Source: Planktothrix sp. PCC 11201 (GTDB lineage: Bacteria > Cyanobacteriota > Cyanobacteriia > Cyanobacteriales > Microcoleaceae). Taken from it: DNA of 64,000 nucleotides. Shown piece after piece: positions 18,058 to 60,132 of the stretch (positions within the stretch are counted from its first letter, which is position 1; each line of letters begins with the position of its first letter). The DNA lies in the NCBI RefSeq assembly GCF_900009135.1, contig NZ_LT797711.1, positions 1 to 64,000 on the forward strand. The letters are read 5' to 3'. A model generated the notes under the pieces. The model was not told the DNA's origin. It was given only the letters and a program-made list of their open reading frames with translations, and searched no databases. The translations under genes were made by a program, and so were the position numbers.

Positions 18058-18175
18058 GTTTTTAATAAAGTAAATTTTACTATGTTTTATTATAGCTAAT
18101 AAATATTATTTTGTCAAGTTAGGGATGGGAGAGGTGCGATCGCTTGTACCTTGTTATTAAAGGGATGGAAAAAGG

Positions 18176-18380: not shown

Positions 18381-18405
18381 ACCATTGATAACAACCGCAC
18401 ATACT

Positions 18406-18738: not shown

Positions 18739-18782
18739 TCGCGGTGGATTGAGTTGAAAATACATAGTATGTCACCTAATTT

Positions 18783-19169: not shown

Positions 19170-19411
19170 GGATTGGTAAATAAGTTAATAATTTCTTCAG
19201 GGAGGGGATCATTAAAATCATCTGGTACAACAAATTCACCCTCACATAAACCAATAGGACGGCGTTCTTTTTGAGGTGGTTTTGTTAGTATCGGTTTGAT
19301 TTCAGCAATAGGTTGATCAGCTTGAGTAATGATCAAGCTGTTACCTTCTTGAATCAGTTTGATAAATTCTGATAAATTGTGCTGAATGTCATCTATATTT
19401 AGGGTAATCAT
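19166..19411 (-). CDS. Phd/YefM-type antitoxin
   Basis: 81 residues. N-terminus MITLNIDDIQHNLSEFIKLI is the Phd/YefM pattern (short beta strand, then helix), followed by G-N-S-L-I-I-T-Q-A-D-Q-P-I-A-E-I-K-P, the family hallmark. The acidic C-terminal tail (VVPDDFNDPLPEEIINLF) matches antitoxins paired with PIN toxins. It should bind the operator and neutralise the downstream toxin. The gene is intact although the toxin is broken. The 4-bp overlap indicates one operon. Confidence 0.85.
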   Translation of the reverse strand: MITLNIDDIQHNLSEFIKLIQEGNSLIITQADQPIAEIKPILTKPPQKERRPIGLCEGEFVVPDDFNDPLPEEIINLFTNP

Positions 19412-19460
19412 GGCATTATTTTTGGTTACTGATTTCTAATTGAAAATCCAGAAAAAGTAA

Positions 19461-19523
19461 TTAAGGCTGTTGTTGTAATTGAGTCATTAATGGGTCAGGA
19501 ATTTCTAAAGTTACTAGATTCAT
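19461..19523 (-). pseudogene. Short antitoxin-like remnant
   Basis: A 20-codon reverse frame reads MNLVTLEIPDPLMTQLQQQP and stops. Its opening resembles small cyanobacterial antitoxins that begin with a beta strand and helix, and it lies just upstream of the antitoxin above. It is too short to be one of them whole, so it may be a decayed copy. Confidence 0.35.
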
Positions 19524-19741: not shown

Positions 19742-19867
19742 GCGATCGCGCTTTGAGTTTGGGGGATGGGAGAGGCGCGATCAAACTTTTGGTGATTTGG
19801 GATATGAGAAATAGGACTAATGAGTTTCTAATTAATGATTAACCATCCTGTAGGGGCGGGTTCTCAA
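19742..19867 (+). repeat. Dispersed repeat, copy C
   Basis: About 125 bp matching 18176-18305 with few differences (shared blocks include GCGATCGCGCTTTGAG, TTTTGGTGATTTGGGATATG and ATAGGACTAATGAGTTTCTA), ending in CTGTAGGGGCGGGTTCTC. After that it decays. It occupies most of the otherwise gene-free 19524-19971 stretch, where nothing else is seen. Confidence 0.85.
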
Positions 19868-19971
19868 AAAATCTTCAATTTAAACCCATGATCTGACTAA
19901 ACTTGCCATCTCTTTAACTCACGTTGTAAATTTTCATGAAAACTGAATTTATTACGATTTTTGAAATACTT

Positions 19972-25000: not shown

Positions 25001-25210
25001 GGTCAAACCCGCAATGTACAAGTCCATAAATTCGTTTGTACAGGAACATTAGAGGAAAAAATCCATGATTTAATTGAAAGTAAAAAAGCGTTAGCGGAAC
25101 AGGTTGTTAGTGCGGGAGAAGATTGGTTAACAGCTTTAGATACTGATCAACTCAGAGATCTATTAATATTAGATCGGAACTCAATTATTGAAGAAGAAAT
25201 CCCATTATAG
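22082..25210 (+). CDS. SNF2-family DEAD/DEAH helicase-like ATPase
   Basis: 1042 residues. The N-terminal ~500 residues form the SNF2-associated region typical of bacterial Snf2/RapA-like proteins. The motor follows: Walker A DDMGLGKT at 580-587, Walker B DEAQ at 681-684, motif III LTGTPVENRL, and in lobe two LILTQFAEWG-like and LSLKAGGVGLNLTRANHV then DRWWNPAVENQATDRVFRIGQ (motifs V and VI). These enzymes translocate on double-stranded DNA and remodel protein-DNA complexes. The next gene encodes a SWIM zinc-finger protein; this pairing recurs in bacteria. It starts 142 bp from the divergent DUF262 gene. Confidence 0.93.
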   Translation: MAILHGSWCMTPGGSFFLWGETWRRVPSESFYSEAIFPYPFALNDTELLTQLLLKNIGLSNIPSQQIIALPTDISESGELTPIYSATTNIPKSYLYPWQITGISLNPQQAFQFLQSLPLNTVITTDSDLGEDLRFWSHIARWSLDLLARSKFLPGLIKQSDQTIISQWQPLLDSAIDQARLLRFAQQMPTVCRVYQELIEGDSLAINLPLSAEDIIINFLSIMIDQQVRNIAKEVDQKAIVSLPIWQKWLQSLGQKENTINAELTEIEFLETTLKNWTSPLQYSLSEFNLFSTAFRLHPPTEYNPNWQLEYCLQAIDQPEFIVNSNIVWNHPVDSFNYRGRTIKHPQETLLKGLGLASKLYPVIETSLQQARPQSCSLNPLQAYQFLKSYAWRFTDSGLGVILPPSLANREGWASRLGLSIKAETPKLKTNERLGLKSLLNFKWQLSIGGQTMTKAEFDRLVAKESPLVEINGEWVELRESDIRSAKIFFSQRKDEMTLSLEDALRLSTGDTQMIEKLPVVNFEAGGKLQELLNTLTNNRNLEPIPNPKDFKGELRPYQARGAGWLSFLEQWGLGACLADDMGLGKTIEFIAFLLHLKEQNSLENPVLLVCPTSVLGNWEREVKKFSPTLKVMVHHGDKRAKGNNFTKIIQDKNLVITSYPLTFRDEKELQGVTWQGLVLDEAQNIKNPDAKQSKTVRNINASFKIALTGTPVENRLSELWSIMDFLNPGYLGQRLFFQRRFAIPIEKYGDTDSLKILRSLVQPFILRRLKTDKDIIQDLPEKQENIVFCPLTTEQATLYQKIVDDSLEKIDDAAGIQRRGMILALLVRLKQICNHPVLIEAKVKNSKKSDIIKTQYSGKLQRLTEMLDEVLAEGDRALIFTQFAEWGKVLQPYLEHYFNREILFLYGSTSKNKREEMIDRFQNDPQAPPIMILSLKAGGVGLNLTRANHVFHFDRWWNPAVENQATDRVFRIGQTRNVQVHKFVCTGTLEEKIHDLIESKKALAEQVVSAGEDWLTALDTDQLRDLLILDRNSIIEEEIPL

Positions 25211-43598: not shown

Positions 43599-43732
43599 CT
43601 TGAATATCGAGAAATTTACAGGTTCGGGCAGTTGAAAACAACCTATTTTAGTTTTTATACCAGCCATACATCCGTAGTCTCGCGCAAACGCACTTTGAAA
43701 ACTAAATAGGGTAAGGTTTCCAGAAGGGTAGG

Positions 43733-44975
43733 GTTAGTTTCTATCTTTTCCCCGCAAGGGGACGGAAACAGTTAGTGTATGTCCTTAAGTTTTACCTATT
43801 AATGTTAGTTTCTATCTTTTCCCCGCAAGGGGACGGAAACTACCCGTTGTGTCCTTCCACTTTAACTTTCGGTTTTGCGTTAGTTTCTATCTTTTCCCCG
43901 CAAGGGGACGGAAACTAGGTATCCCTTTAGCTACTAAGGCTAATGGTTCTGATGTATTAAAGGAGTGTTAGTTTCTATCTTTTCCCCGCAAGGGGACGGA
44001 AACGACGTATACCCCCTTTAATGGGTATACCTTTCTCATGTTCAGTTAGTTTCTATCTTTTCCCCGCAAGGGGACGGAAACGTTTTACGGTTAACACCTT
44101 CAGCAGCAGCAGCAGCTTGTCCTGTTAGTTTCTATCTTTTCCCCGCAAGGGGACGGAAACTTCAGGGTATAGAAACGACCCATTCATAATTCAAATCTTA
44201 GTGCATGAGTTTGGTTAGTTTCTATCTTTTCCCCGCAAGGGGACGGAAACCATTAGGCGGGTCTCTCTCATCATCTAAGAAAAGTTTGTATGTGTTAGTT
44301 TCTATCTTTTCCCCGCAAGGGGACGGAAACCAGACACTCAAGTGTTCGACAATATTGAGTGTCGATTTCTAGAAGGGAAGTTAGTTTCTATCTTTTCCCC
44401 GCAAGGGGACGGAAACTCAAGTATCCAATTGATTAAGTCCCTTTGGCTATCTATATCCAGTTAGTTTCTATCTTTTCCCCGCAAGGGGACGGAAACAGCT
44501 GTTGAACATGAAGGTGTTTGGCAATTACCAGAAGCAGTGTTAGTTTCTATCTTTTCCCCGCAAGGGGACGGAAACAATCAGAGTAGCTTGATATACTGAC
44601 ATTACAGAAGCAGTGTTAGTTTCTATCTTTTCCCCGCAAGGGGACGGAAACTTCTTCTCCAACCGACACACCAACAAAAACTTGAACTCCTTTAGTTAGT
44701 TTCTATCTTTTCCCCGCAAGGGGACGGAAACTACATAGTAATCAGTAGGAAATGATGCAAGACTTCCATCCATGTTAGTTTCTATCTTTTCCCCGCAAGG
44801 GGACGGAAACAATGAAAGTATTTTCCCATACTTGGATGAATTTAGCCATGGTATTGTTAGTTTCTATCTTTTCCCCGCAAGGGGACGGAAACTTCAGTGA
44901 TGTTGAGAACATCGTAACTTGGAGTGTTGTAAACACCTGTTAGTTTCTATCTTTTCCCCGCAAGGGGACGGAAAC
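43733..44975 (+). CRISPR. CRISPR array: 16 repeats, 15 spacers
   Basis: Sixteen identical 37-bp repeats, beginning GTTAGTTTCTATCTTTTCC and ending GCAAGGGGACGGAAAC, start at 43733, 43804, 43879, 43967, 44045, 44124, 44214, 44294, 44380, 44460, 44539, 44615, 44695, 44774, 44856 and 44939. The centre CCCC-GCAA-GGGG is a hairpin. Spacers run from 34 to 53 nt (34, 38, 51, 41, 42, 53, 43, 49, 43, 42, 39, 43, 42, 45, 46). The -GGGGAC-x-GAAAC end matches Synechocystis-type arrays, so the forward strand is probably crRNA sense and the leader is on the left. No repeat is degenerate. No cas gene is in the window, so processing would depend on Cas proteins elsewhere. Subtype is not assigned. Confidence 0.98.
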
Positions 44976-45158
44976 TCAGAAACTGTAACAACGCTCAAGT
45001 GGTAATCTGTCAGGCATTTAAACGGCTACACATCCCCATAATTAAGGGTTTTTGGTCTTTTTGCAAAAAAAGTTGATTTTTAAGTCATTTTTACAAAAAA
45101 TTGTTAAAATAGAGAAAGGTGAGCGATCGCGCAGTGTCGAAACTCATCAGAAACCATC

Positions 45159-45599: not shown

Positions 45600-46260
45600 T
45601 ACCGCTTTATTAGATAAGATAAATCAACAGTTAAAACAAAGTTTAAATCCCGATCTGCAAACCCTTAGAGATCTTGAGGATTGGTTTAAATTCTACATTT
45701 TCAATATTATTATCAAAGCCGCTCGGAATGAAGGAGCCTTAGTTTATTATCAAGATGTTTTGAAAAGAAATCCAGAAACCTTAGTGTTTCGCAGACGGGC
45801 GGGACAAATTTATGATCTGACCCAACCCTATACCCACGCCGTGATTGAATTTGAACAAAAACCGCCCTTAGAAATTCATTTGGGTGTGAAAATTCATGGG
45901 CGTTTAAGGGTGTTATATGATTGTGATGTTTGTGTTCTTTATAAAATGGAGGCCGAGAGTTGTCGGACGAATCAACGGGAACCCCGGGCATCTCGAATTT
46001 TTATGGCGATCAACTGTCAGCATTATGCCTCGGAATTGCGACTAGAATTTGCCCAAACTTTTCTAGCTTTTTCTTCGGAATTAAGGGTAGCGGGGGATTG
46101 TTATTTTGTTTCTAATAGTTCTTCCCCGGCCGTTGGTAAACTTTTGGCCAGTCGCAAACGAAAATGGGAATATGATATTGTGCCGAGTGAAACGAATAAT
46201 GTCAATCGGTTAATGTATGAATTTCAGACAAAATTTAAGGACTTCAAAGCCAAAAGTTAG
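45589..46260 (+). CDS. Unknown protein, possible restriction-endonuclease fold with altered active site
   Basis: 223 residues; AGGAG precedes the ATG inside the upstream gene. Residues about 80-175 show a beta-strand/Asp/beta-strand pattern: GRLRVLYDCDVCVLYK, then RIFMAINCQHYASELRLEFAQTFLAF. In PD-(D/E)XK enzymes the last part would read like V-E-C-K-H-Y; here E-x-K is N-x-Q (INCQHY). The fold call is by eye and unproven. If right, the protein may bind DNA or a partner without cutting it. It ends 93 bp before psbQ. Confidence 0.65.
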   Translation: MSINTALLDKINQQLKQSLNPDLQTLRDLEDWFKFYIFNIIIKAARNEGALVYYQDVLKRNPETLVFRRRAGQIYDLTQPYTHAVIEFEQKPPLEIHLGVKIHGRLRVLYDCDVCVLYKMEAESCRTNQREPRASRIFMAINCQHYASELRLEFAQTFLAFSSELRVAGDCYFVSNSSSPAVGKLLASRKRKWEYDIVPSETNNVNRLMYEFQTKFKDFKAKS

Positions 46261-46353
46261 CCAAATGTCCCCGAATCTGCAACAATATTAGAATCCCTGA
46301 TCGGAATAGATTGGGGATGTGTTTTTTTTAGTAACCTGAAAAACAGTTAGGAT

Positions 46354-46800
46354 ATGAAAGTTTATCGTTCAATTTTGGCCTGTGTCTTAGCCCTAGTCAC
46401 AACGTTTGTGGTCGGTTGCAGTTCTCCAAAAGCGGCAATTCCCACCACCTACACGGAAATTCAAATTCAACAGATCCAAAAACATAACACTGATATTTTA
46501 GCCCTGCGCGATCGCTTTACTACCGAACTTCCCCGGTATATTAGCACTCGGAATTGGGTACAAGTGGACACCTTTGTGCATGGGCCATTGGGTTCATTGT
46601 TGCAAGAAATGAATTATATTACTAAAAATTTGTTGCCCGATGTCCAGTCGAAAGCTCGTGAATTGTCCAGAGAAGTGTTTGAACATTTAGTAACGGTTTC
46701 TAAAGCCGCAGAAGCCCGTGATCCCATTCAAGCGGCTTCGGGATATCAAGAAGCTCTGAAAGATTTAGATTCATTCTTGAGTTTAGTCCCCAAAGCTTAG
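46354..46800 (+). CDS. psbQ: Photosystem II lipoprotein CyanoQ
   Basis: Lumenal extrinsic subunit of photosystem II that supports oxygen evolution. 148 residues with a lipoprotein signal (hydrophobic 6-20, then VVGC with Cys22). The mature part is a four-helix bundle (LALRDRFTTELPRYISTRNWVQVDTFVHGPLG, LSREVFEHLVTVSKAAEARD, ending LKDLDSFLSLVPKA) that matches CyanoQ. This is among the clearest cyanobacterial markers in the window. Confidence 0.9.
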   Translation: MKVYRSILACVLALVTTFVVGCSSPKAAIPTTYTEIQIQQIQKHNTDILALRDRFTTELPRYISTRNWVQVDTFVHGPLGSLLQEMNYITKNLLPDVQSKARELSREVFEHLVTVSKAAEARDPIQAASGYQEALKDLDSFLSLVPKA

Positions 46801-46805
46801 TCAAT

Positions 46806-46934
46806 TTGTTGTTGCGCCGTTGTTGCGCCGTTGTTGCGCTTCAGCGCACTCTTATTTCCCAGGGCTAAAGCCCAACAACTTATAAGAGGGGCTAAAGCCC
46901 AACAACGGGCAAGAGGGGCTGAAGCCCAACAACG
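46806..46934 (+). repeat. GTTGTTGCGC and GGGCTAAAGCCCAACAAC repeat cluster
   Basis: Three GTTGTTGCGC units, then three copies of a GGGCT(A/G)AAGCCCAACAAC hairpin unit separated by about 10 bp. Related to the palindrome at 25215. A long open frame runs through it into the next gene but is repeat sequence. Confidence 0.85.
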
Positions 46935-46950
46935 TTTTTTAAGATTTTTT

Positions 46951-48072
46951 ATGAATTCTATTGTTATTATTGGTTGCGGTGTAGTCGGAGCTACCATTGC
47001 CTATGAACTCTCCCAAAATCCAGATTTAAAGATTACTGTTATTGATCAAAATCCTCCGGCTCAAGGCTCAACAGGGGCGGCTTTGGGAGTTTTGATGGGA
47101 ATTATTAGCCAAAAAACGAAGGGAAGGGCGTGGCGACTGCGAGAGTTTAGTATGCAGCGTTATGAAACCCTAATTCCCGAATTAGAAGGGATTACGGGTA
47201 AAATTATTCCTTTTAATCGCCAAGGTATTTTATTATTATCCTATGGGGAAGATGAATTGGAAAAATGGCAAAATTTAATCAATTTACGTCGAAGTCAAGG
47301 ATTAGAATTGCAATGGTTAGATCCGGATCAAATTCAGGTTAAATATCCCCAGATTAATCCTGAAAAAGTATTAGGTGCGGTCTATTCTCCCCGGGATCGA
47401 CAAGTTGATCCAACGGCTTTAACTTTGGCGTTAGTCGAGGCGGCTAAAAGTCGGGGGGTGACATTTCAATTCGGTGTTAAGGTAGAATCTTTAGAAACTA
47501 TAAAAACAGCAAATAATCAGCAGGTTTGTCAAGGCTTGAAAACCAGTACAGGAGAATTTAAAAGTGATTGGGTTGTGTTGGCGACGGGGTTAGGAACAAC
47601 GCCGTTAATTTCTGCAATTCCTAGGGAAAATGAGCCAGAAAAATTAATTAATATTCGTCCAGTTTTAGGACAGGCTTTGCAAGTTCGTTGTCTGGAAACC
47701 TTGGGAAATTTAGGATTTGAACCTATAATTACGGGGAATGATATTCATATTGTCCCATTAGGAAATGCGGAATATTGGATTGGGGCAACGGTGGAATTTC
47801 CCGAACACGGAGATGAGATTTTAGCGAGTTCTGAACTATTGGATTTAGTGTTAAAAGGGGCGATCGCAATCTGTCCGGCTTTGGAAAACGCCACAATTAT
47901 GAAGCAATGGTCAGGGTTACGTCCCCGCCCTGACGGGATTCCAGCCCCTGTGATTGGGAATTTACCCGGGTTTGAGAATATTCTATTGGCTACTGGACAT
48001 TATCGCAATGGTGTGTTATTAGCACCAGCAACGGCGGATCAAATTCGTGGGATGATCAGGGTTGAGGGTTGA
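46951..48072 (+). CDS. FAD-dependent oxidoreductase (DadA/glycine oxidase type)
   Basis: 373 residues from ATG 46951. Rossmann motif SIVIIGCGVVGATIAYELS, then QGSTGAALGVLMG, and a C-terminal WSGLRPRPDGIPAPVIG...LLATGHYRNGVLLAPATAD typical of D-amino acid/glycine oxidases (ThiO/DadA group). Likely oxidises an amine or D-amino acid with FAD. Substrate unknown; ThiO-like thiazole synthesis is one option. A longer frame to 46831 passes through repeats and is rejected. Confidence 0.85.
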   Translation: MNSIVIIGCGVVGATIAYELSQNPDLKITVIDQNPPAQGSTGAALGVLMGIISQKTKGRAWRLREFSMQRYETLIPELEGITGKIIPFNRQGILLLSYGEDELEKWQNLINLRRSQGLELQWLDPDQIQVKYPQINPEKVLGAVYSPRDRQVDPTALTLALVEAAKSRGVTFQFGVKVESLETIKTANNQQVCQGLKTSTGEFKSDWVVLATGLGTTPLISAIPRENEPEKLINIRPVLGQALQVRCLETLGNLGFEPIITGNDIHIVPLGNAEYWIGATVEFPEHGDEILASSELLDLVLKGAIAICPALENATIMKQWSGLRPRPDGIPAPVIGNLPGFENILLATGHYRNGVLLAPATADQIRGMIRVEG

Positions 48073-48289
48073 AAAAAGGCACGCTCTAAAATAAATCAAC
48101 CCGTAGCAGGATGACATAATTCCCATAAATCCCTCAAATTCCCCTAAGTATAAATACTCGATCTTGTTTTTTTAAAAAAAGCTGTAGCTTACGTTACAAA
48201 ATTTTAAGATTTTTACCTATTTCATCCACTTTCAATCAAAGGAACTATATAATGAGGGGGTAAGCACAAAAGATTATCTAAAAAAGTCC

Positions 48290-48445
48290 ATGTTAAACAC
48301 AAACCTACGCAAAAACTCCATTAAACTGTCTGACGTCCATCGGGCTAATATTCAAAAAAGACTGGAACACCGCTTGGAAGTTGCTAGAGCTAATGGAGAC
48401 GAGAATTTAGTTCGTGTTCTGGAAGCCGAAATGCGCCAGTTCTAA
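48290..48445 (+). CDS. Small 51-residue protein of unknown function
   Basis: ATG 48290 to TAA 48445. Charged and helical, with SDVHRANIQKRLEHRLEVAR and ENLVRVLEAEMRQF. A TATAAT lies at 48248-48253. The regular helix pattern makes a real gene likely. No family is recognised. The rest of the gap from 48073 shows nothing else. Confidence 0.6.
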   Translation: MLNTNLRKNSIKLSDVHRANIQKRLEHRLEVARANGDENLVRVLEAEMRQF

Positions 48446-48540
48446 GAATTGTCCCTTCCTTGATCAGATATTTGTATTCAGCTAGGCAGTGGTAAAACCC
48501 ATTTGCGTTAACCTTACTCCTAGAAGAATTTATGAGTGAA

Positions 48541-49749
48541 CTACCCACACTTCTCTACGAGTAAGTGTGTGCTTCTAGCATCAACGGGAGGGGCATCAAA
48601 AGAAACAGAAGTTTGTTCTGGTGACTGACATCCCCTCAGACTAGCAGTATCGCTGGTTCCCAACGACAAAATCCGCAAGGCTTCATTCTTGATATTTACC
48701 GCAGCATTGATATCACGGTCATGGGTAGTTTGATAATGCTCACAAGTCCAACTTCTAATATCAAGTGGTAAACTACCGACTTTGTTTAGACAGACGTTAC
48801 AAGTTTTAGAAGAAGGGAAAAATCTATCGATTTCGATATAGGTTTTACCTTCTTTTTCTGCTTTGTACTTGAGCATTGTGCCAAACATTCCCCAACCACA
48901 ATCGCTAATTGATTTAGCTAACTTATGGTTTTTAACCATATTCTTAACTGCTAGATCTTCTACAGCAATAACTTGGTTTTCGTTAACTATCTTGCGGGAT
49001 AGTTTGTGTAGAAAATCTTCTCGACAACGAGCAATCTTGGCGTGGACTTTAGCTACTTTTAATTTAGCTTTTTGTCTGCTATTACTTCCCTTCTGTTTAT
49101 GGGATAATTTTTGTTGTTTACGTTTTAAGTTGCGCTGATGTTTAGCAAAATGTTTGGGGTTGCTATACTTGTCCCCATCACTGGTAATGGCAAAATGGGT
49201 TAACCCTAAATCAATCCCAATTGCTTTTCCATTGGTTGATAGATTGGGCATTTCCTTACCATCATCAACCAAAACGGAAGCATAATAATTTCCATCGGGA
49301 TTCTTTGAGATAGTAACGGTTTTAATTACGCCTTGAAATTCCCGATGGCGCAAACAATAAACCAACCCAACTTTCCCCGGTAGTTTTAGATAATCTCCCT
49401 CAAATTTAACGTTTTGGGGATAACTGATTGATTGCTTACCGTGTTTAGATTTGAATCGAGGTAATCTTGTCCGTTTCTCAAAGAAGTTTTTGTAAGATAC
49501 GGATAAGTTAAGAGCGACGACTTGTAGCGACTGAGAGTAGGCATCTGTTAACCAAGGATATTCCTTTTTTAACTCAGGTAACAATCCTTGAATAGCTTTC
49601 CTTGATAATCCTTTCCCTGTCGTTTTGTAGGTTTCTTGACACAAGTTCAGGGCATAATTCCAATACCAACGGCAACAACCAAAACTTTTAGCTAAGGCTG
49701 TTTCCTGCTCGATATTTGGATATATACGATACTTGTATGCTTGAAACAT
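48541..49749 (-). CDS. tnpB: TnpB-family RNA-guided nuclease of an IS605-type element
   Basis: 402 residues from ATG 49749. OrfB/TnpB: YKYRIYP at the N-terminus, RuvC parts GIDLGLTHFA (Asp180), VAVEDLAVKNM (Glu264) and HDRDINAAVN (343-350), zinc ribbon C-N-V-C near 320. The ribbon's second half reads WTCEHYQTTHDRD: Tyr339 (TAT, 48735-48733) stands where family members have Cys, so the zinc site may be broken although the RuvC triad looks intact. TnpB proteins use a guide RNA from the element's end. An upstream TTG (49761) is an unlikely start. Confidence 0.93.
   Translation of the reverse strand: MFQAYKYRIYPNIEQETALAKSFGCCRWYWNYALNLCQETYKTTGKGLSRKAIQGLLPELKKEYPWLTDAYSQSLQVVALNLSVSYKNFFEKRTRLPRFKSKHGKQSISYPQNVKFEGDYLKLPGKVGLVYCLRHREFQGVIKTVTISKNPDGNYYASVLVDDGKEMPNLSTNGKAIGIDLGLTHFAITSDGDKYSNPKHFAKHQRNLKRKQQKLSHKQKGSNSRQKAKLKVAKVHAKIARCREDFLHKLSRKIVNENQVIAVEDLAVKNMVKNHKLAKSISDCGWGMFGTMLKYKAEKEGKTYIEIDRFFPSSKTCNVCLNKVGSLPLDIRSWTCEHYQTTHDRDINAAVNIKNEALRILSLGTSDTASLRGCQSPEQTSVSFDAPPVDARSTHLLVEKCG
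48546..48569 (-). other. Right-end hairpin of the tnpB element
   Basis: CACACTT at 48546-48552 and AAGTGTG at 48563-48569 form a 7-bp stem in the last codons of tnpB. In IS605-type elements this region is also the guide-RNA scaffold. Confidence 0.45.
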
Positions 49750-49790
49750 TGTTATTTTCAAAACCCTTTAATAAAGTCTAACATATAATT

Positions 49791-49966: not shown

Positions 49967-50012
49967 GGTGGTTTATCTATAATAATAGCGAGCGAGGACG
50001 GTTGCAGTGCTG

Positions 50013-51185
50013 CTATCTATTAATCTTAGATTGAACAAATTCCTCTAAACGTTTGATGCCTTTTTCAATCGTAGTTAAATCCGTTGCGTAGGATAAACGA
50101 ATATGGTCATCATTGCCGAAGGCGTGACCGGGTACGGCGGCTAAGTGTTTTTCTTCTAGTAATAAATTACAGAAGTCAACGGAATTTAAACCCGTTTTGT
50201 CAATATTAATGTACATATAAAATGCCCCGTCAGGTTTGAGACAACTAATCCCCTGAATTGCATTTAATAATTTGAACATAACTTCTCGCCGATTTGCAAA
50301 AGCTAAACGCATTTCTTCTACACAGTCGAGGGAGTTTTCTAAAGCTGCGATCGCCCCATATTGAGCAAAAGTACAAACATTAGAGGTACTATGACCTTGT
50401 ATACGAGTGGTGGCTTTAATAATATCTATATCCCCCGCTAAATATCCTAAACGCCAGCCCGTCATGGCAAAGGATTTAGCAAAACCACTACTAATTAAAG
50501 TACATTTATAGCTTTCAGGATGGGCGGCGGCAATACTTAAATGTTGAGCATCATCATAAATAATTTTAGAATAAATTTCATCGGAAACTACTAAAATACC
50601 CGCTTCCACAACCACTTCCGCTAAGGCGCGAATTTCCGCCGGGGTATAGACCATTCCCGTCGGGTTAGAAGGCGAATTTAAAACAAAAAGTTTGGTCTTG
50701 GGTGTAATCGCTTGGCGTAACATTTCCGGGGTAATTTTATAACCGGTTTCCGCACCCGTTGGCACAATAACTGGAATCCCTTCGACCAGTTTTACCATTT
50801 CAGGATAACTTAACCAATAGGGAGACGGAATAATCACTTCATCCCCAGGATCAACCACCGCCACCATCAAATTGTAGAGGGAATGTTTGCCCCCATTAGT
50901 AACAATAATATTGTCACTTTTATAGTCTAAACCGGTTTCTTTACTTAAGGTTTGGGCAATTAAGGAGCGTAACAGGGGTTCCCCTGCTGCTGGGCCATAG
51001 CGAGTTTTACCTTCATCCAGGGCTTTTTTCGCCGCAGCAACAATATGTTTCGGGGTATCGAAGTCCGGTTCGCCTACGCTAAAATTTAAGACATCCATCC
51101 CCTCAGCTTTCATTGCTTTTGCCTTCGCTGAGATCGCCAGCGTTACAGACGGCGGAACTTTTTCTACTCGCGCTGCTAGCTTCAT
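50013..51185 (-). CDS. Aspartate-type aminotransferase
   Basis: PLP-dependent class I aminotransferase, 390 residues. Lys237 in [21 protein letters not shown] forms the PLP bond. [34 protein letters not shown] and [12 protein letters not shown] are family blocks of the Igamma/Ib aspartate aminotransferases of cyanobacteria. It exchanges amino groups between aspartate (and possibly prephenate) and 2-oxo acids. ATG at 51185. It appears monocistronic. Confidence 0.93.
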
Positions 51186-51595
51186 ATTTTAATAATCTCT
51201 GATTTTCTGTTTCAATCTTTAGATCTTAGGAGGGGGATTGCATCGTGGCAACCCATTTGTTACAGGATGGTAACATTATATTATGATTACCACGGTTTTT
51301 CTACCACAAATCTTAATCTGTTGAGGTTAAGCGGTGATTATTTAGGATTAAATATTAAGAAAATCGAAAATTTTGATCAATTTCTGATTTATGTAATTCG
51401 ACAAGTTAACTCAAAACTTTATAGTATTTCCCATCTTGATTAATACATTTAAGTGTTTATTTTCTCCTTAACTCTGGAATTTTTTTGGCAATATAAGAAT
51501 TACTGCATAAGAGTTTTGAGCGAGTATCAGATCTCGCTCCTCTGTACTCTTGCAAGTTTTTAAACCCGCTTTGATCGGCTTAAACCCTTGCCAAT
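51186..51595. other. Gap upstream of the aminotransferase
   Basis: 410 bp. It contains short inverted motifs (GTTAC-AGGATG-GTAAC at about 51254; GGTAA and TTACC nearby) that could be regulator sites. No full NtcA box is found. No gene is supported. Confidence 0.4.
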
Positions 51596-52063
51596 CTAAC
51601 GATGATGTAGGGCTTCCGTATTTTGAGGATTGATTCTCAGCGCCTGATCATAATCTTGGATGGCTCCCGTGCGATCGCCCAATTTCAATCGAGCTAACCC
51701 TCGTTTAACATAAGCATCATCATTATTCGGGTCAATTCTAATCGCTTGATCACAATCTGCAACTGCACCCCGATAGTCTCCGAGTTGCCGTTTTGCATTA
51801 CTTCTACCCACATACGCATTGACATCTTGAGGATCAAGACCAATCAACAGATTATAGTCTTGTAATGCACCTCGGTAATCTCCTATTAAATAACGGGAAT
51901 TTCCCCGATTTAAATAGGCTGTTGTGTTATTCGGATCTTGATAGAGAAGTTGGGAATAATCTTCAATCGCTCCGTGATGATCCCCTGACAATGCTTTAAA
52001 TAAAGCCCGACTTTCCAAATCTTGTAAATTTGATATCGGCACTTCATTCATTGCCGTGACCAT
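51596..52063 (-). CDS. Small TPR protein
   Basis: 155 residues with about four tetratricopeptide units (ALSGDHHGAIEDYSQLLYQD, GDYRGALQDYNLLIGLDPQ, GDYRGAVADCDQAIRIDPNN, GDRTGAIQDYDQALRINPQN). No signal peptide. Likely a protein-binding scaffold. A 27-residue membrane peptide gene lies 42 bp upstream in the same direction. Confidence 0.85.
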   Translation of the reverse strand: MVTAMNEVPISNLQDLESRALFKALSGDHHGAIEDYSQLLYQDPNNTTAYLNRGNSRYLIGDYRGALQDYNLLIGLDPQDVNAYVGRSNAKRQLGDYRGAVADCDQAIRIDPNNDDAYVKRGLARLKLGDRTGAIQDYDQALRINPQNTEALHHR

Positions 52064-52105
52064 TGAGTTAAAAAATTGTTCTTGCTTCCTAGCTTCTAAT
52101 AATGT

Positions 52106-52189
52106 TTAACCTAAAGGGGTTCTGTTGAACCATTCATACAATAACCACCATAAAACCAGGCCAATAATAATACTGATTAAAATGTCCAT
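52106..52189 (-). CDS. 27-residue single-span membrane peptide
   Basis: ATG 52189 with AGGAG 10 nt upstream, stop at 52106. Sequence MDILISIIIGLVLWWLLYEW then FNRTPLG: one membrane span with a short tail. Small-subunit-like peptides of this shape accompany membrane complexes. No family is recognised. Confidence 0.5.
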   Translation of the reverse strand: MDILISIIIGLVLWWLLYEWFNRTPLG

Positions 52190-52272
52190 AAGATGATGAC
52201 TCCTATTTGCTCTCGTAATGTGAATGGGGCTGGTTTAATGAGATTCCAGAATCACCGTTGCAGTTAATCATC

Positions 52273-52442
52273 GCTTTAACCTCGTGACAATTTGTACAAG
52301 TTGTAAATTTTGACCTCTCTATCTATTGCTGCCTAACAAATGATTTACGCAAATTTCCTGAAAATTTTTGATCAGGTTTCGGTGGGGGAGAAGAAACCCT
52401 GTTTCTAGGGTTTGCAACAAGGACTCAAGGGTTCATCGGCTA
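52273..52442. repeat. Direct repeat L flanking the sacsin-like gene
   Basis: 170 bp that match 56852-57040 (repeat R) at roughly nine bases in ten, in the same orientation, apart from a ~20-bp insert in R. Shared blocks include CCTCGTGACAATTTGTACAA and GCCTAACAAATGATTTACGC. On the reverse strand its right end still encodes A-D-E-P-L-S-P-C-C-K-P-stop, a copy of the last 11 codons of the DUF928 gene. Confidence 0.9.
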
Positions 52443-52463
52443 TCATATAACATTAGTTCAATT

Positions 52464-55400
52464 CTAATTCAATGGTTTGAATTGATTATCATCTATTGGA
52501 CAATAGATTTTGACGTTTGGATGAGGTATAGAGTCTATTAATCTTTTCCAGTTGATTAAAACATCATTTTGAACAGGGTATTGAGGATCGCTGCGTTGCA
52601 AACCAATTAGAAAATCAATTTTTTCACTTTTGTAAGGTGCTGATGTTAAATCTTGTTCCTTCAGTTGTGAAAAAATGCTAGTGAAGGTAGACCAAACTTG
52701 CATGACACGAATTATTTTTTCAACTGAACTACTCGTATGAACAACAATTAGAAGTTCATATTTTTCTCGATTTTGAATATTCATCATTGTTGTCCATTCA
52801 TTCATAGTTATGCGAATGACAGGAGTGCTAATAGCTTTCGCCTCCACTTTAAGCAATGGCTTCAACCCTTGTTGTTCTGTTGGTTGGGTGCAAAGAAAGT
52901 CAAACCCAGCAGGAGCTTCTTGTTTAACTATCTGTTGATAACCCAGCCATTTATAAAAAAGTTGTGACCATTTTTCCCCTAAAGCACCATATTCTGGATT
53001 GCCTGTACCTTCATATCCTGATGTAATAGTAGTTGTTTCATGGGAAGTTTCTTGTACTGAAGGTTTCTCAATTTCATTGTTTTCTTCATCAGGAGGAATG
53101 GGATCAGAAGTTGGTGCATAACCAAGAGCATCAAGAATTTCAGATGCAGCCTTGGGTGTTTTTGCCATAATCACTTCTTTGATACCTGCGGCAAATTTTC
53201 CAGCTTCTGCATTAGGATTAATCGCATAAGCAATTTCCCGCGCTATGTGAGGCCAGGGTTCAACTCCATTTTGTAATTGATAGTACAAAATATATTGATG
53301 ATTTCCTTGGCTATAGTCAAGATAAACTTGTACTATTTCTTCAGTGCTTGAATGTAACTCAAAGTGATAACGGACTTTAATCAAGCTGACTTTTTTAACA
53401 ATTAATTTTTCCAAGCAATCCAAATTTACAGCTTGAGAATTAGTCAAAAGCTGCCCTTGAATAACTCGCTTGATCAAAGATTTTCTATTTTTCAATCTTT
53501 TGGTTATGACTGGATCTACATTAGGATTGGTAGGCTCTAGTTGTGTTAATTTTGTTTGTATTGCCTGACTTAAAGGACGGACACCAACAGCTTCCATTGC
53601 ATACCAAGATTCTGAGGGTCTAGGAATAACATTTTCGTTACTCTGGAGAAAAGTTAACTTTTCCAATAAATTCGGACGATCTACAAAAAATATCTGCTCA
53701 GGAATCGTTAAAAGTCGTTTAGCATTGGGAATTACTTTTTGGATACTCAAATTTTTAAATTTTTGTAGCTCGTTGTTATCATTTCCAAAACTATTTTCAA
53801 TTTTAGCCTGGGTTAAAACTTTCCAACAATCAAGGAGTACCTTATAACTTTCGTCATCTAAGCAAAAATTATCATTTTCAAAATTTTTGCTAATTTCTTC
53901 AATCACGAAAATAGCATCAATTGGTTCTGGAGAGTCAGAAACCCCTAATTTTTGAAAAAGCGGATAATAAGGGTGTAAATGATCAGGTAAATGATAACGA
54001 TATTTGCCAAAAGGATGATCATTCCAAAAAACTTTTTCAGGTTGAACATATTGGCTAGTTGCCAGATGAATAGTTGGGTTATTTTTTAGCCTTTCAAAAT
54101 TAGTATCATCGATCTGATCAATGTTATTTTGTAAAAATTCATAGACTCGATGATCCAGTAAGTGACCTTGCCCAGAACAGGTTAATAGATGTTCAATCAC
54201 TTGCTGGAGTTGAGGTTTAGCTTTAATCCCTAAAAAATCACTAAATTTATTAGCTTCAGCTTGCAGTTCAACCCTACGATCAATATCCAGAAATTTTACT
54301 TGAGTATCAACTAGATAATGGGAGGAGCTAGTAAAGATTTGATCGGGACAATACCATCGTGTTTCATCTCCTTTTACGGGCAACCAAGCCATAGATTTTA
54401 AAGAATTTATTGACTCAAGTTCTAACGTTCTTGATTTTAATGCTTCCCATCGTTCAGTCAGATGTTCAAAAATTTCTTGCATCTGTTTTCTTGTAGTTAC
54501 TTTCGGCTCCTTTGCTTTCAGGGCATTAATGATTTGACAGATATGAATCAGGCTGGGTTGATCAACTACTTGTAGCCATTTCAAGAACTTTTGAGCTTTT
54601 TCTGCACAATTCTTTGGTAAGACAGCGATTTGGTTTTTCAAAGTCCAATTGCTAAAAAGTTTCCGAACAGATTCACTGTCTAAGTAAGCTTCATCAGCAG
54701 ATCGAAACTGACCATCTTTGCATTCAATTAGAGGACATTGAGATAATAGTTGTCGAATCTGTTTGTTTGCTTCAATTTCTTCCAGATGCGTTGCTAATTG
54801 ACAAACTAATTGACGGCACGCTTCCGGCAAAATTTGTTTTTCTTGGAAAGCTTTGGGAACTTGTTCACAAGCATACTCTGAAAAAGTTAAATATTTTGCC
54901 CCTAGATTTACCAAAAAATCTATGTGTCCACGCACATATTGAATATCCACCAATGAAGCTAAATTTAATGTGTCTTGAAAAGAACCAGGAATTGCCAGAC
55001 CTTCTAAGGGGCGAAGTCGATCAGAACTAGGGAAAATGGACAATTTGCGAACACGATGTAACAGACTTTCAGATCGTAAAATATTTTGTTGATGATTTTC
55101 TAACCATCCGATAAGTTCAGGTATAAGGTTCCGATTATTATGCCATTGTTTTTCTAATTGTGATGTACTAATTTTCTCTAACAATTCAATAGCTTTATCA
55201 ACACTGAATTTAGCAACTAAATCTTCAATTTCTTTGGGATTACCAGATGCTAGAAAAGGTTGCGTCACACCTAAACTTTTAAATAAAGTAGCTGATTGTG
55301 GTTTGGCGTGGCACAAGTTAATAGGAGGATATAGTTGGTTATCATCACTCAGGGCGATCGCACATTTTTTTAACTTATCTTTAGCACTTGTATCTTTCCC

Positions 55401-56846
55401 AACTGACTGACGAGTAAATAAAATTCCAACTTCTTTTGCTAACTGCTTTCGCTGAGTTTCAGACTTGATCCAATCAGGTACTTGATTTATAGGTATTGCT
55501 TTATCTAATCCCCACGCAAAAAGAGCATCTGCTAACATTGAGGCATCTAGTGAAATCACTCCAACTTTCTTGAGCAAACGAGAATAAGAGCGCAGATCAA
55601 AATGTACAATTGAAGAACGTTTGATTTTATCCAAAGCTTTCTCTAAAACTGCGGAAAGTTCATATTCTTCTTTAGCATCTAGTAAGCACACCTGTTGAGG
55701 GGACTGCCATTTTTTTGCTGACGTAAAAATTATTTCTGAAGACTTAACTTTAGGACTTAGTTTTTCCCAGAAAAATTTTAATAATGGATGCTGAGATTGT
55801 ACCTCAATCTGGCTTAATAAACTCCAGAGATGTTTATGACCGAGAATATTTTTCAGATGTATTAGGTTTTGCTGAATGATCTCGGCAGCTGAGAAAATTG
55901 CTAATTTATTCCATGTACTTTGATCGTCTTGTTCTAAGCGAATTCCTTTGCGATCAGAAGTTGGGAAGAAATCTGCATTAATATGAAAAGGCAGTTCAGT
56001 TTTTTGTTGAGTTGGCAAGAAAGCATAGTAAAAGCCAGAAAAATTATCTTGATTGCTATCAGGAATAGCGACAACAACATCTGCTCGACGTTTCGTTTTG
56101 ATAGTCAACTGAGAGTTGGCTTTTAATACATTAGCATATTCATTAAAATTCCCATCAAGAAGATACCAGCCTTCCTGAGTAGTAGTCTTCTTTAGTTGAT
56201 TATTAACTTCAATGATAGTTTTTGTTTCATTTTTTATTTGTGAAACTTTTATAATTAAATTATTATCAATTTGAATTTCAATTTTTTTAAGATTTTGTAA
56301 AAAAATCAGTGACTTTGGAGCAACTTCAATCAGATCTTTTAAAAATTGAGCAACTGAAGCTGGAGAAATAATTCCTACTTCTAAGTTCTGACGAATTTGG
56401 GTATCTGAACTAGCCCAAGGAAAACAGAAACGAGTACCTGGAGATGATTTCTCTAACAGAACTTGTTTAATTATAGAATTAGATTCTTTTTCAGGATAAA
56501 AAGTCCAGTGCTTACCAGAAGATATAATTTCTGGGTGATCAGTAATTTGATAAACTGAGGTAAAGCCAATTCCAAATCTACCTATTGTCCATTCTTCATC
56601 CCGTCTGTCACCTCCAGCTAGTCTTTGCATTTTTTTAAAATCTTGTTCACTAAATTCGCTATCATTTTCAACAATCAGCGCATCCGTACAAATATTGAAT
56701 CTGATCCAAGATGACTTAGAATCTTCTGCATTTTGAATCAACTCATAAGCTAATGTGAAAAATCCACTCAGATTCACTAGCTCTGTTCTTAAAAAATCTA
56801 AGATATCGATGCCTTGTGATAAGTATTCAGGAGATGAATTATTCAT
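52464..56846 (-). CDS. Sacsin-like GHKL ATPase with DUF3883-type nuclease end
   Basis: 1460 residues, no neighbour in operon. N-terminus: sacsin/Hsp90-type ATP-binding domain with ELIQNAEDS (Asn39, Asp42) and GRFGIGF (89-95). A long helical middle region without recognised motifs. Near 1270 comes an acidic linker, then a DUF3883 (NO VEIN C-terminal)-like PD-(D/E)XK domain: GALGEKWSQLFYKWLGYQ, GFDFLC (Asp1316), VEAKA (Glu1335, Lys1337). Similar ATPase-plus-nuclease proteins lie in bacterial defence islands; a single-protein antiphage role is inferred. It stops 22 bp from repeat L and starts 6 bp from repeat R, so its promoter must lie in the repeat or further upstream. Confidence 0.85.
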   Translation of the reverse strand: MNNSSPEYLSQGIDILDFLRTELVNLSGFFTLAYELIQNAEDSKSSWIRFNICTDALIVENDSEFSEQDFKKMQRLAGGDRRDEEWTIGRFGIGFTSVYQITDHPEIISSGKHWTFYPEKESNSIIKQVLLEKSSPGTRFCFPWASSDTQIRQNLEVGIISPASVAQFLKDLIEVAPKSLIFLQNLKKIEIQIDNNLIIKVSQIKNETKTIIEVNNQLKKTTTQEGWYLLDGNFNEYANVLKANSQLTIKTKRRADVVVAIPDSNQDNFSGFYYAFLPTQQKTELPFHINADFFPTSDRKGIRLEQDDQSTWNKLAIFSAAEIIQQNLIHLKNILGHKHLWSLLSQIEVQSQHPLLKFFWEKLSPKVKSSEIIFTSAKKWQSPQQVCLLDAKEEYELSAVLEKALDKIKRSSIVHFDLRSYSRLLKKVGVISLDASMLADALFAWGLDKAIPINQVPDWIKSETQRKQLAKEVGILFTRQSVGKDTSAKDKLKKCAIALSDDNQLYPPINLCHAKPQSATLFKSLGVTQPFLASGNPKEIEDLVAKFSVDKAIELLEKISTSQLEKQWHNNRNLIPELIGWLENHQQNILRSESLLHRVRKLSIFPSSDRLRPLEGLAIPGSFQDTLNLASLVDIQYVRGHIDFLVNLGAKYLTFSEYACEQVPKAFQEKQILPEACRQLVCQLATHLEEIEANKQIRQLLSQCPLIECKDGQFRSADEAYLDSESVRKLFSNWTLKNQIAVLPKNCAEKAQKFLKWLQVVDQPSLIHICQIINALKAKEPKVTTRKQMQEIFEHLTERWEALKSRTLELESINSLKSMAWLPVKGDETRWYCPDQIFTSSSHYLVDTQVKFLDIDRRVELQAEANKFSDFLGIKAKPQLQQVIEHLLTCSGQGHLLDHRVYEFLQNNIDQIDDTNFERLKNNPTIHLATSQYVQPEKVFWNDHPFGKYRYHLPDHLHPYYPLFQKLGVSDSPEPIDAIFVIEEISKNFENDNFCLDDESYKVLLDCWKVLTQAKIENSFGNDNNELQKFKNLSIQKVIPNAKRLLTIPEQIFFVDRPNLLEKLTFLQSNENVIPRPSESWYAMEAVGVRPLSQAIQTKLTQLEPTNPNVDPVITKRLKNRKSLIKRVIQGQLLTNSQAVNLDCLEKLIVKKVSLIKVRYHFELHSSTEEIVQVYLDYSQGNHQYILYYQLQNGVEPWPHIAREIAYAINPNAEAGKFAAGIKEVIMAKTPKAASEILDALGYAPTSDPIPPDEENNEIEKPSVQETSHETTTITSGYEGTGNPEYGALGEKWSQLFYKWLGYQQIVKQEAPAGFDFLCTQPTEQQGLKPLLKVEAKAISTPVIRITMNEWTTMMNIQNREKYELLIVVHTSSSVEKIIRVMQVWSTFTSIFSQLKEQDLTSAPYKSEKIDFLIGLQRSDPQYPVQNDVLINWKRLIDSIPHPNVKIYCPIDDNQFKPLN

Positions 56847-56851
56847 GCTTT

Positions 56852-57040
56852 GCTTTAACCTCGTGACAATTTGTACAAGTTGGAAATTTTGACCTGTCTA
56901 TCTATTGTTGCCTAACAAATGATTTACGCAAATTTCCTAAAAAAATTTTGAGCAGGTCTGGGTGGGGGAGCAGAAACCAGGTTTCTCGGAGAAACCTGGT
57001 TTCTAGGGTTGACAACAAGAACTCAAAGGTTCATCGGCTA
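56852..57040. repeat. Direct repeat R flanking the sacsin-like gene
   Basis: 189 bp matching repeat L (52273-52442), with an extra palindromic block AGGTTTCTC-GG-AGAAACCT. Its right 38 bp are the last codons and stop of the DUF928 gene. An inverted repeat with arms GAAACCAGGTTTCT and AGAAACCTGGTTTC (56973-57003) overlaps the stop and may end that transcript. Confidence 0.9.
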
Positions 57041-57743
57041 AACTTTCTAACCCAATCGAATTTAATAACTCTTTCCACTCCTGTAAAATCTTTGGATCTT
57101 GAGGTTTTTCCTGCCGCAATCCTGCTAATAAAGTTAAGGTTTCATACCATAATCCGTTTTGAGCATAGACTTGAATTTGTTCTAGGGGTGTATTGGCTTT
57201 TTCTAACTGACGGATTAAATTTTCACTGGGGTTAATTCGGGCGATCGCTCCTTCAACTCCATCATCCTCAGCCCGCAATCTAGGATTACATTGATAGAAA
57301 AATCGCCAACGATATTGTTTACCCACTTCTAACATTGGTGCGGATGGAGGTAACTTAAATTTGACAATTCCAGGGGTTCCGGTGAGAGGCATTTTTTGCT
57401 GAAAAATTTTATTATCTTCTTCATCTAACAACACAAATTCTACCTCTCTAGGGGGATTTGAACTGTAGGGAACATAAATCATAAATGTGGGATATCCTGA
57501 TAATGTTAACACGATATTGGATTTAGGAACCAATGCAGTTAAGGGTTTAGAAACCGCCGGACAATTGGTTCGACTGGAGGAACCCTGACGATCTTCATTG
57601 GGTTCGCCCCGATCTGGAGGTTGAAATTCAACGGCGACTTGTTGAGCAGATAAAGGGTGTTGGGCAACCCCAGATTTTGTTGAATTTAATGGGATTAAAA
57701 TTCCAGCTAAAACAAATAATAAAAATAAGTTTAGGTGCTTCAT
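57003..57743 (-). CDS. DUF928 protein, secreted
   Basis: 246 residues from ATG 57743. Signal peptide at about 1-27 (hydrophobic, ending GVAQ). The DUF928 body is visible: FMIYVPYSSNPPREVEFVLLDE, GIVKFKLPPSAPMLEVGKQYRW and WYETLTLLAGLRQE. Function is unknown; in cyanobacteria DUF928 genes often sit beside CHAT-CHASE2 genes, as here (94 bp gap). Last gene of the sigma/DUF1822/CHAT-CHASE2 series. Its 3' end is part of the repeat that flanks the ATPase gene. Confidence 0.85.
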   Translation of the reverse strand: MKHLNLFLLFVLAGILIPLNSTKSGVAQHPLSAQQVAVEFQPPDRGEPNEDRQGSSSRTNCPAVSKPLTALVPKSNIVLTLSGYPTFMIYVPYSSNPPREVEFVLLDEEDNKIFQQKMPLTGTPGIVKFKLPPSAPMLEVGKQYRWRFFYQCNPRLRAEDDGVEGAIARINPSENLIRQLEKANTPLEQIQVYAQNGLWYETLTLLAGLRQEKPQDPKILQEWKELLNSIGLESLADEPLSSCCQP

Positions 57744-57837
57744 GGATGACGGTAAAATGCTGTATTTTTTAGTAATGGGTAGAATTAAATCCGCCCTTAT
57801 ATCTTTATTGACCCACAATACAGGTTTTACGCAATTC

Positions 57838-60132
57838 TTATATTTTTTTATTAAACTGCAATCGCCACACCCAAACCCCCGCTCCCACCAACCCAAATAA
57901 CGCCGGAACCACAGGAACCCAAATCGCCACCAAAAACAACCCCCAACACACCGCGTATAAGACAGTGGCCGTGGTTGCGAAGGTAATCAGGATTCTGGTG
58001 CGATGGCGGGTCAACAGAGCCGAAACCCCCCCTAACAGCGTCCAAAACCCAATCCAGAGTGCATCTGTCCATTTTGACCCCACTTGTAACAACGGACGAT
58101 TATCTAAAACCGCAGATAGAAGATGACTAACCATTTGTGCCTGAATGATTAATCCTCGCACTTCTTGATCTGGGCTGTAGGGGGTACGATGACCTTCATC
58201 TTGAACGCTGATGCTATTAACACCGACTAAAACTAATTTATCTTTAATTAAATTGGGATCAACTTCGCCATTAAGAATTTGTGTAAACGTTACTTCTGGG
58301 GCAATGGGTTCTGATAATCTATAGTTTAGCATAATTTGATATCCTTTTCCATCCGATTTTGGATAAAATCCGATATCAGATTTCATCGGTTTTAAAATCA
58401 GATTACCCAATTTAATTTGATCTTGTGGCAAGGTTTGGGGTTGAATTCCTTGTTGTTTTAAATAATGAAAAGCGAGTTTAATGGCTAAAGAAAGTTGGGT
58501 TTTACATCCCTGGGAATTATTGATAAATAAAAGTTGACGGCGTAAAATGTGATCAGAATCGCGCATCACATCATTAAATCCAACTTGCAAAAGGGGAGCA
58601 TCGGGCGGAGCAGCAAGACCGGAATCATTTTTATACGGTTTTTTACAAATTAAAAATAGATTATTTTGGGTTCTAAATTGATTAATTAAGTTTTGATATC
58701 CCGGTTCAACGGGTAGATCTCGATAAAGATTTAATCCAATGGTTCGGGGTTGGTATTGGGCAAGTTTTTGTAAAAATTCCGTGAGAATTTGATCGGTAAC
58801 AGTCCCGTTTTTGAATGCTTTAATTTCTGCTTCTGTGATGGCGACTAACAATAAACGATTATCCTGTTTTTCCATAGGGCGCGATCGCATCATACTATCA
58901 TAGGCTTTTAATTCCCAAAATTGTAAGCCTCCTCCCTGACGAATTAAACAGACTAAAAGAGTAATAGTTAAACTGATTAATCCGATTTTCTTAATTTTAG
59001 TTAACTCAAAACTTGGTAAACGATGTAGATTTTTACGACGTTTTAAATCTTGCCAACTGACAGAAACAATAGCCGGATTTTGACAAATAACAGGCAACCA
59101 ACTACCACAGGGAAAGCGATTTTCTAAGATGTATAACCGTTCTCTTGCTTGTCGCACTGCTAAATATAAAGATTGACCTTGAGAAAATGCCTGTAAAAAA
59201 TGTTTTAAAAAAGTTTGCGCTACAATATCCGGTACAGGTTCGCGCATAACAATAGTTTGAGGAATATTTAATTGGGCGAGTTCCGTAGCTAAACCTAAAC
59301 CATCACAGGAATTAAAAATAGCAATTTGTAACCCGTTTTCAATCGCTTTTTTAAACGCAGGTAATAGCATTTTAATAGAGACTTTATCTTGATGATTGAT
59401 TTTAAAAGTTCCCGATCTTTCCTGGTCTTGACTGTCACTATGTCCGGCAAAAAACAGAATATCCCAACCTTTACTATCCCATAAAGCCTGATCCAGTTGT
59501 TGTGCATTAGGTTCAATTAAAAAAATTGTTTCTGTCTGGGGTAAAGCGGTTAAAATCTTTTGATCTTCTGCAATATTAATTCCCGTTTTATTCCCTAAAA
59601 TCGCTAAAATTCTAATTTTTGAACCTGGGACAGATACGGAGGTTTTGCGAGTGTATTGGGGCTGACTGAGAGCTAATTCAGCGCGAGGATAATCGTGGAA
59701 AAAATGCCATAATTGCCAGGGTAAATGTCGGACTTGGAAATCCGAGGTTTCTAAAATAATTTGAATTTCATCAGTGGGTTGTAACGCTGAACGTAACTGT
59801 TGATCAATGGTGCGAAATTCAGCAAAATTAAGCCATTGATTAAACTGATAAATATATTGGTTACAGATTTCCTGAAGTTCGACTTCAGAAACATGGGTAA
59901 TATCTTCTTGTTCTAATTCAATTCGAGATGGAATGCCTAAAGTGTGATAGAGTTCTTGATAAATAAACCGCCAACGTTGATAAAATCTGATCAATTCTGG
60001 TGCCGCCGGTAAACAACCCGTTATTTTAATCGGACGGGGATTTTCTAAATCCGATAGTCGGGCAGTTACTAAAGGAAATCCGGCCGTTAATGACCCTTTT
60101 CCCAAATCAATGATTACAATTTTTTCTGTCAT
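57838..60132 (-). CDS. CHAT-CHASE2 membrane protein
   Basis: 764 residues. A CHAT (caspase-like) protease domain at about 170-340: catalytic His231 in FFAGHSDS and Cys276 in FNSCDG. One membrane segment follows at about 380 (IGLISLTITLLVCLI). An extracytoplasmic CHASE2 sensor domain follows (about 395-670; RLLLVAITEAEIKAF, QPRTIGLNLYRDLP). Three C-terminal membrane segments close it. CHASE2 usually senses an outside signal; CHAT domains cut partner proteins. A signal-gated protease is the inference. Confidence 0.93.
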   Translation of the reverse strand: MTEKIVIIDLGKGSLTAGFPLVTARLSDLENPRPIKITGCLPAAPELIRFYQRWRFIYQELYHTLGIPSRIELEQEDITHVSEVELQEICNQYIYQFNQWLNFAEFRTIDQQLRSALQPTDEIQIILETSDFQVRHLPWQLWHFFHDYPRAELALSQPQYTRKTSVSVPGSKIRILAILGNKTGINIAEDQKILTALPQTETIFLIEPNAQQLDQALWDSKGWDILFFAGHSDSQDQERSGTFKINHQDKVSIKMLLPAFKKAIENGLQIAIFNSCDGLGLATELAQLNIPQTIVMREPVPDIVAQTFLKHFLQAFSQGQSLYLAVRQARERLYILENRFPCGSWLPVICQNPAIVSVSWQDLKRRKNLHRLPSFELTKIKKIGLISLTITLLVCLIRQGGGLQFWELKAYDSMMRSRPMEKQDNRLLLVAITEAEIKAFKNGTVTDQILTEFLQKLAQYQPRTIGLNLYRDLPVEPGYQNLINQFRTQNNLFLICKKPYKNDSGLAAPPDAPLLQVGFNDVMRDSDHILRRQLLFINNSQGCKTQLSLAIKLAFHYLKQQGIQPQTLPQDQIKLGNLILKPMKSDIGFYPKSDGKGYQIMLNYRLSEPIAPEVTFTQILNGEVDPNLIKDKLVLVGVNSISVQDEGHRTPYSPDQEVRGLIIQAQMVSHLLSAVLDNRPLLQVGSKWTDALWIGFWTLLGGVSALLTRHRTRILITFATTATVLYAVCWGLFLVAIWVPVVPALFGLVGAGVWVWRLQFNKKI

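Follow-up and report, generated by a model that had tools for sequence, protein, structure and literature searches.

A tmtA-like gene between diverged copies of a DUF928 gene end in Planktothrix sp. PCC 11201: a possible insertion scar with long target duplication

The window analysed here, the whole stretch of DNA under study, comprises 64,000 nucleotides of Planktothrix sp. PCC 11201 (contig NZ_LT797711.1, positions 1 to 64,000). Its locus of interest lies on the minus strand and holds, from left to right, a gene at 50013..51185, which presumably encodes an aspC-like aminotransferase and which adjoins the DUF928 spacer in the sister-species genomes G006 and G007 as well, a TPR-repeat gene identified by Pfam (51596..52189) that lies downstream of repeat L (52273..52442), a tmtA-like gene (52464..56846), repeat R (56852..57040) and an intact DUF928 gene (57003..57740; PF06051, E 2.6e-62 in Pfam). 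The TPR gene has an in-frame stop at codon 28 (52106-52108, minus strand) if its start is placed at 52189, and it may be decaying. The window has 42 ORFs of at least 120 aa, 26 of which were scanned with Pfam (DUF928 with a trimmed start). Four of these 26 had no match at all and none was an integrase, in agreement with the preliminary description; the sole mobile-element product among them was an IS605-type TnpB (48541-49761). The window contains no tRNA, and no Rfam families were found at 51000-58000. Two further features of the window are recorded here. A tandem array of diverged ~80-bp repeats occupies 43717-44984 and has a shorter matching stretch in G007, and an SNF2-type helicase (22082-25210), which adjoins a SWIM zinc-finger gene, matches the ZorD and DpdE defence profiles and could be a housekeeping helicase.

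The tmtA-like gene codes for 1460 aa and is the sole ORF longer than 100 aa between L and R. The PADLOC profile of the Tiamat anti-phage protein TmtA (PDLC03969) was matched with 1004.6 bits (E 2.2e-302), residues 1-1273 aligning to profile positions 1-1274 and leaving positions 1275-1563 unmatched. The N-terminus is sacsin/Hsp90-like and ATP-binding: Pfam finds the sacsin domain, in line with the earlier description of the gene as sacsin-like, NCBIfam finds a sacsin N-terminal ATP-binding-like domain, and PDB sequence matches to sacsin fall at E 1e-8 to 7e-8, those to Hsp90 homologues being non-significant. Near the C-terminus, residues 1307-1374 match NOV_C weakly (19.3 bits, below the Pfam cut-off of 22.1). 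A nuclease function of this C-terminal domain (residues about 1233-1460) is not claimed, the candidate acidic residues not being conserved in the Calothrix homologue. Judged by the family match alone, the gene is likely to act in phage defence, and its product would be a single-gene anti-phage ATPase. Tiamat is a single-gene system. It is reported from defence hotspots of Pseudomonas genomic islands (PMC12629846). The present protein shares with TmtA the family profile and the sacsin/Hsp90-like ATP-binding region; it differs in its last 187 residues, which leave the profile and carry the weak NOV_C match.

Long direct repeats of the target lie on either side of the gene, as shown by alignment and by blastn against the own genome. 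Global alignment placed L and R in the same orientation with identity at 157 of 170 aligned columns. The two differ by 13 substitutions and by 19 gap columns, of which 18 coincide with a hairpin of greater length in R; the longest identical run is 31 bp. With R as query, blastn recovered L from the own genome at E 3.5e-52 (83% identity counting gaps), a similarity far beyond chance. R consists of the 3′ end of the intact DUF928 gene, with its last 11 codons and stop (57003-57005), plus 151 bp, and it ends just before the tmtA start codon. L, which lies between tmtA and the TPR gene, repeats the last 11 codons and stop (52405-52442) together with 132 bp downstream, and is an orphan copy that lacks the gene body. 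The C-terminal reading is ADEPLSPCCKP-stop in L and ADEPLSSCCQP-stop in R. The preliminary description had proposed same-orientation direct repeats of about 90% identity which share some 11 codons and about 130 bp, with a gene filling the space between them to within 22 and 6 bp. Orientation, similarity, shared codons and the filling of the space have all stood; the identity is corrected to 92% without gaps, the downstream lengths to those given above, and the margins of the ORF (52464-56846) to 21 bp from L and 5 bp from R.

A third copy of the repeat was not found by blastn of R against the own genome. The remaining 30 matches (E up to 10) are each 38 bp or shorter, and about half of them sit over an AGAAACC/GGTTTCT hairpin. 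As only two copies exist genome-wide, the idea that L and R represent a dispersed element was rejected. The hairpin itself does belong to a dispersed AGAAACC/GGTTTCT repeat. In R it is strong, with 16 pairs over the DUF928 stop (56971..57005, minus strand), and a 91-nt piece folds at -24 kcal/mol with a z of -3.4; the L hairpin is shorter (z -1.37). The middle 50 bp of L/R resemble, at 74-82%, a spacer found in several members of the genus beside a lipoprotein-like gene, which we take to be a lipoprotein gene; this spacer was rejected as the source of L/R since the similarity is too weak. As a separate observation, two short stretches of the lineage-specific block described below, 52321-52369 and 51464-51525, resemble, again at 74-82%, parts of a chaperone-type locus of other genus members. 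A search of the own genome, run without a positive control, did not recover the lipoprotein-like gene that belongs to this chaperone-type locus.

The duplicated gene end had been likened in the preliminary description to att sites. Integrative islands restore the 3′ end of their target gene at att sites, and the present locus shares with them a duplicated 3′ end and a gene that stays intact on the gene-body side. Nevertheless, a site-specific island or satellite that used the DUF928 end as att site and later lost its integrase is very unlikely, and the att reading is disfavoured: a single ORF fills the space, no integrase appears in the 26 of 42 ORFs scanned, there is neither a tRNA nor a short identical core, and the repeats are long (170 and 189 bp) and diverged. 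In addition, flanking direct repeats were found at 0 of 16 tmtA-like loci on other contigs (one of them a viral contig), whose gene ends were set by tblastn limits and several of which have short flanks (L075 with almost no upstream DNA; L073, L075, L076, L077 and L078 with under 4 kb of downstream DNA). The idea that tmtA is generally flanked by repeats was therefore rejected, and the same count of related loci with this arrangement also speaks against the insertion scar that we prefer below. When relatives were searched with the whole protein, 2 of 58 matched at E up to 1e-20, through the C-terminal 180 residues only. Genes of G002 and G027 that share only the tmtA C-terminus are without a long flanking repeat, G002 showing one 27-bp pair. 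The preliminary description had further expected recombination between L and R to excise exactly the gene. With 13 mismatches over 170 bases and a difference in length, the repeats are unlikely to allow ready excision, although the 31-bp identical run might still permit recombination.

The locus was compared with relatives represented by one genome per species, 8 candidates per genome being scored in the DNA search with DUF928. The gene was found at 86-91% in G004, G006, G007 and G008 and at 68% in G002 and G003. The contig of G004 stops at the locus and G008 carries a run of N nearby. G006 and G007 have a single DUF928 3′ end near the aspC-like gene, and tmtA, the TPR gene and most of the repeat are absent from the spacer between the two, ~250 bp of which are unaligned in G006 and ~480 bp in G007. 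The missing part includes the 130-bp portion of the target that lies downstream of DUF928. The 138-bp spacer part of R, present in two copies in the own genome, was matched in the other nine genomes of the genus by pieces of at most ~60 bp at 78%. As G006 and G007 lack tmtA, the TPR gene and most of the repeat, the tmtA-TPR block looks like a gain in this lineage. The block with the TPR gene and most of L (51430..52381) is without counterpart in G007, and the G006 alignment ends at 51363. Relative to G007, the gain extends from 51430 to 56989, TPR gene included, minus a 61-bp piece of L (52382-52442) that matches the DUF928 end of G007 itself. The earlier proposal that the gene integrated at the DUF928 3′ end, which now exists twice, is thus supported by G006 and G007, with their single end and no gene. 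The aspC-DUF928 spacer of G006 (L010 / L086) contains several AGAAACCCGGTTTCT hairpin units in a row, which indicates that the site is variable in other species too.

The same comparison bears on the order of events. The DUF928 end and its spacer could have been duplicated in tandem before tmtA arrived, in which case most of the second DUF928 copy would have been lost, by deletion or by replacement with tmtA. L retains only the last 11 codons, as a deletion would leave it, and long direct duplications do occur near DUF928 in G002 and G003 (L091, L092), but they do not comprise the DUF928 end itself. We consider this course of events highly improbable, since the L-R similarity ends at 52442 with no further DUF928 piece seen there, and since the stretches of G006, G007 and G008 have one DUF928 end each.

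The L-R distance is 0.081 versus a fourfold-site distance of 0.188 to G007, the nearest sister compared. Judged by this divergence, which makes the copies too old for a recent event, the duplication is not recent; it is probably younger than the split from G007, an estimate that could be distorted by constraint or by conversion. Over the final 38 bases of DUF928, L is identical to G007 and G008 at 37 positions and to G006 at 33; R scores 33 of 38 against all three genomes. R and G006 have in common an adjacent two-base change and the ending CCQP, where L, G007 and G008 read CCKP. Our reading is that L and R may be two alleles circulating in the genus. Against it stands the fact that the two copies are equally distant from G006 overall (33/38 each), so that only the two-base change and the adjoining codons make R look G006-like. 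An origin of the duplication within this lineage would likewise give L an ancestral appearance.

This leads to the possibility that the target was duplicated in place, L and R diverging afterwards, either by the filling of widely spaced break ends around a captured fragment or by a template switch that copied the DUF928 end. The lower L-R than sister distance makes an origin after the split possible, and L has kept the codons of G007 and G008. However, the two-base change common to R and G006, set against the match of L to G007 and G008, is left unexplained without later recombination, and the right flank carries a weak mosaic signal; we therefore regard in-place duplication as a rather doubtful, if serious, candidate.

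The mosaic signal was obtained by counting sites that agree with one or the other sister. For G007 against G006, the left flank gave 120:73 at 46000-48600 and 49:22 at 50000-51430, and the right flank 80:84 up to 58868 and 342:117 beyond, with a block-permutation p of 0.027 for the break at 58868. For G007 against G004, the right flank gave 145:140 and then 155:55 with a break at 61321 (block-permutation p 0.005), while G007 against G008 was non-significant (block-permutation p 0.165). Plain permutation gave p 0.0005 in all three right-flank comparisons, block permutation being the stricter procedure; the test is post hoc and its break points disagree between comparisons. The counts hint that the right flank is less G007-like near the insertion, a pattern that fits, without proving, an imported tract on the DUF928 side. 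The allele pattern of L and R and this mosaic together give a hint of import by homologous recombination.

On balance, we lean towards reading the locus as the scar of a one-off, integrase-independent insertion with long target duplication, not as an active mobile cassette. A defence gene of the tmtA type would have inserted into the spacer immediately 3′ of DUF928 and ended up between two copies of the DUF928 3′ end plus spacer, of which R is still attached to the DUF928 gene and L is the orphan. The incoming DNA would have carried tmtA linked to the DUF928 end of a sister species; homologous recombination would have taken place on the DUF928 (R) side and illegitimate joining, without homology, on the other, and L would be the resident DUF928 end left behind. 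As a result of the duplication, tmtA and the TPR gene share their upstream sequence. As an exact empty site (DUF928, spacer, TPR gene and one repeat) was found in none of the genomes searched, we infer the mechanism, that is, the donor, the crossover and the illegitimate join.

Exactly the same anatomy would be produced by a Campbell-type single homologous crossover of a circle with tmtA and one repeat copy, in which case L and R would likewise be two alleles. Such a circle would stem from excision in a strain with the same arrangement; no such earlier genome was found, and the single hit in the plasmid collection, a Calothrix plasmid bearing a distant tmtA, has no flanking repeats (L069). We consider this route improbable.

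The one-off scar has a precedent in insertion with long target duplication, which was reportedly first described by Nobusato et al. in 2000 (Gene 259:99). It is described for restriction-modification genes of Helicobacter pylori (PMC1643837, PMC3031569, PMC4978471, PMC3154945), and the phrase is also used in one plant paper for transposed Arabidopsis genes. Among the matches listed, none combined "long target duplication" with cyanobacteria, Tiamat or antiphage. The likeness lies in a defence gene placed between long direct repeats of host target DNA and recognised by comparison with a relative that lacks the gene. The present case differs in its tmtA-like cargo in a cyanobacterium, in repeats that are diverged and maybe two alleles, and in the absence of an exact empty site; a restriction-modification cargo is usual, not required, in the described cases. 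As for the joins, homology-facilitated illegitimate recombination (PMC3240628) would give the same anatomy by one homologous and one illegitimate join, with the difference that it is an experimental phenomenon there, whereas here the joins are deduced.

Repeats comparable to L/R were sought in 484 kb of the own contig, the window plus 420 kb, with tandem arrays, pairs spaced by under 1 kb and pairs lying within ORFs set aside. The long noncoding direct repeats that bracket an interval of gene size are L/R, a cluster at 17-20 kb, a pair at 165-168 kb and a pair at 229/236 kb, the last being a dispersed repeat; whole-genome copy number was checked for L/R and the 17-kb repeat only. The pair at 165542-165703 and 167533-167694 (L121:1542-1703 and L121:3533-3694) is a 162-bp direct repeat of 85% identity with one copy inside the 3′ end of an ORF, presumably RTX-like, and it encloses what are presumably an IS630-type transposase gene and the end of an RTX-like gene. 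This 165-168 kb block is absent at the same place in G001, G006, G007 and G009. The 17-kb noncoding repeat has copies at 17135-17238 (a half copy), 18176-18381 and 19742-19902, three copies genome-wide besides two partial matches of 62-65 bp elsewhere. Its copies enclose a two-gene cassette (17354-18057) and small genes, and the array adjoins a GmrSD-type restriction gene (19972-21939). The small genes at 17-20 kb have no PADLOC match, and we take some of them to be antitoxin-like. At the corresponding locus, a 6-kb stretch of G008 has one good repeat copy and a 52-bp partial copy; 17338-18083 and most of 18382-19467 are unmatched there. The first two-gene cassette recurs in G001 at 98%, at a different locus.

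The resemblance of the 17-kb cluster keeps open the idea of a recurrent process, in which defence and toxin-antitoxin-like genes of the genus would spread without an integrase by copying local intergenic DNA to both sides; we judge it improbable. How single defence genes enter chromosomes without a transposase or integrase is, in our judgement, poorly understood. If L and R are alleles of sister species, as the one-off scar would have it, they would implicate ordinary homologous recombination in such entry. If the recurrent process were true, the window would hold two of its products, tmtA at 52-57 kb and the array at 17.1-19.9 kb, and defence and toxin-antitoxin-like genes would move through the genus as single genes or small cassettes.
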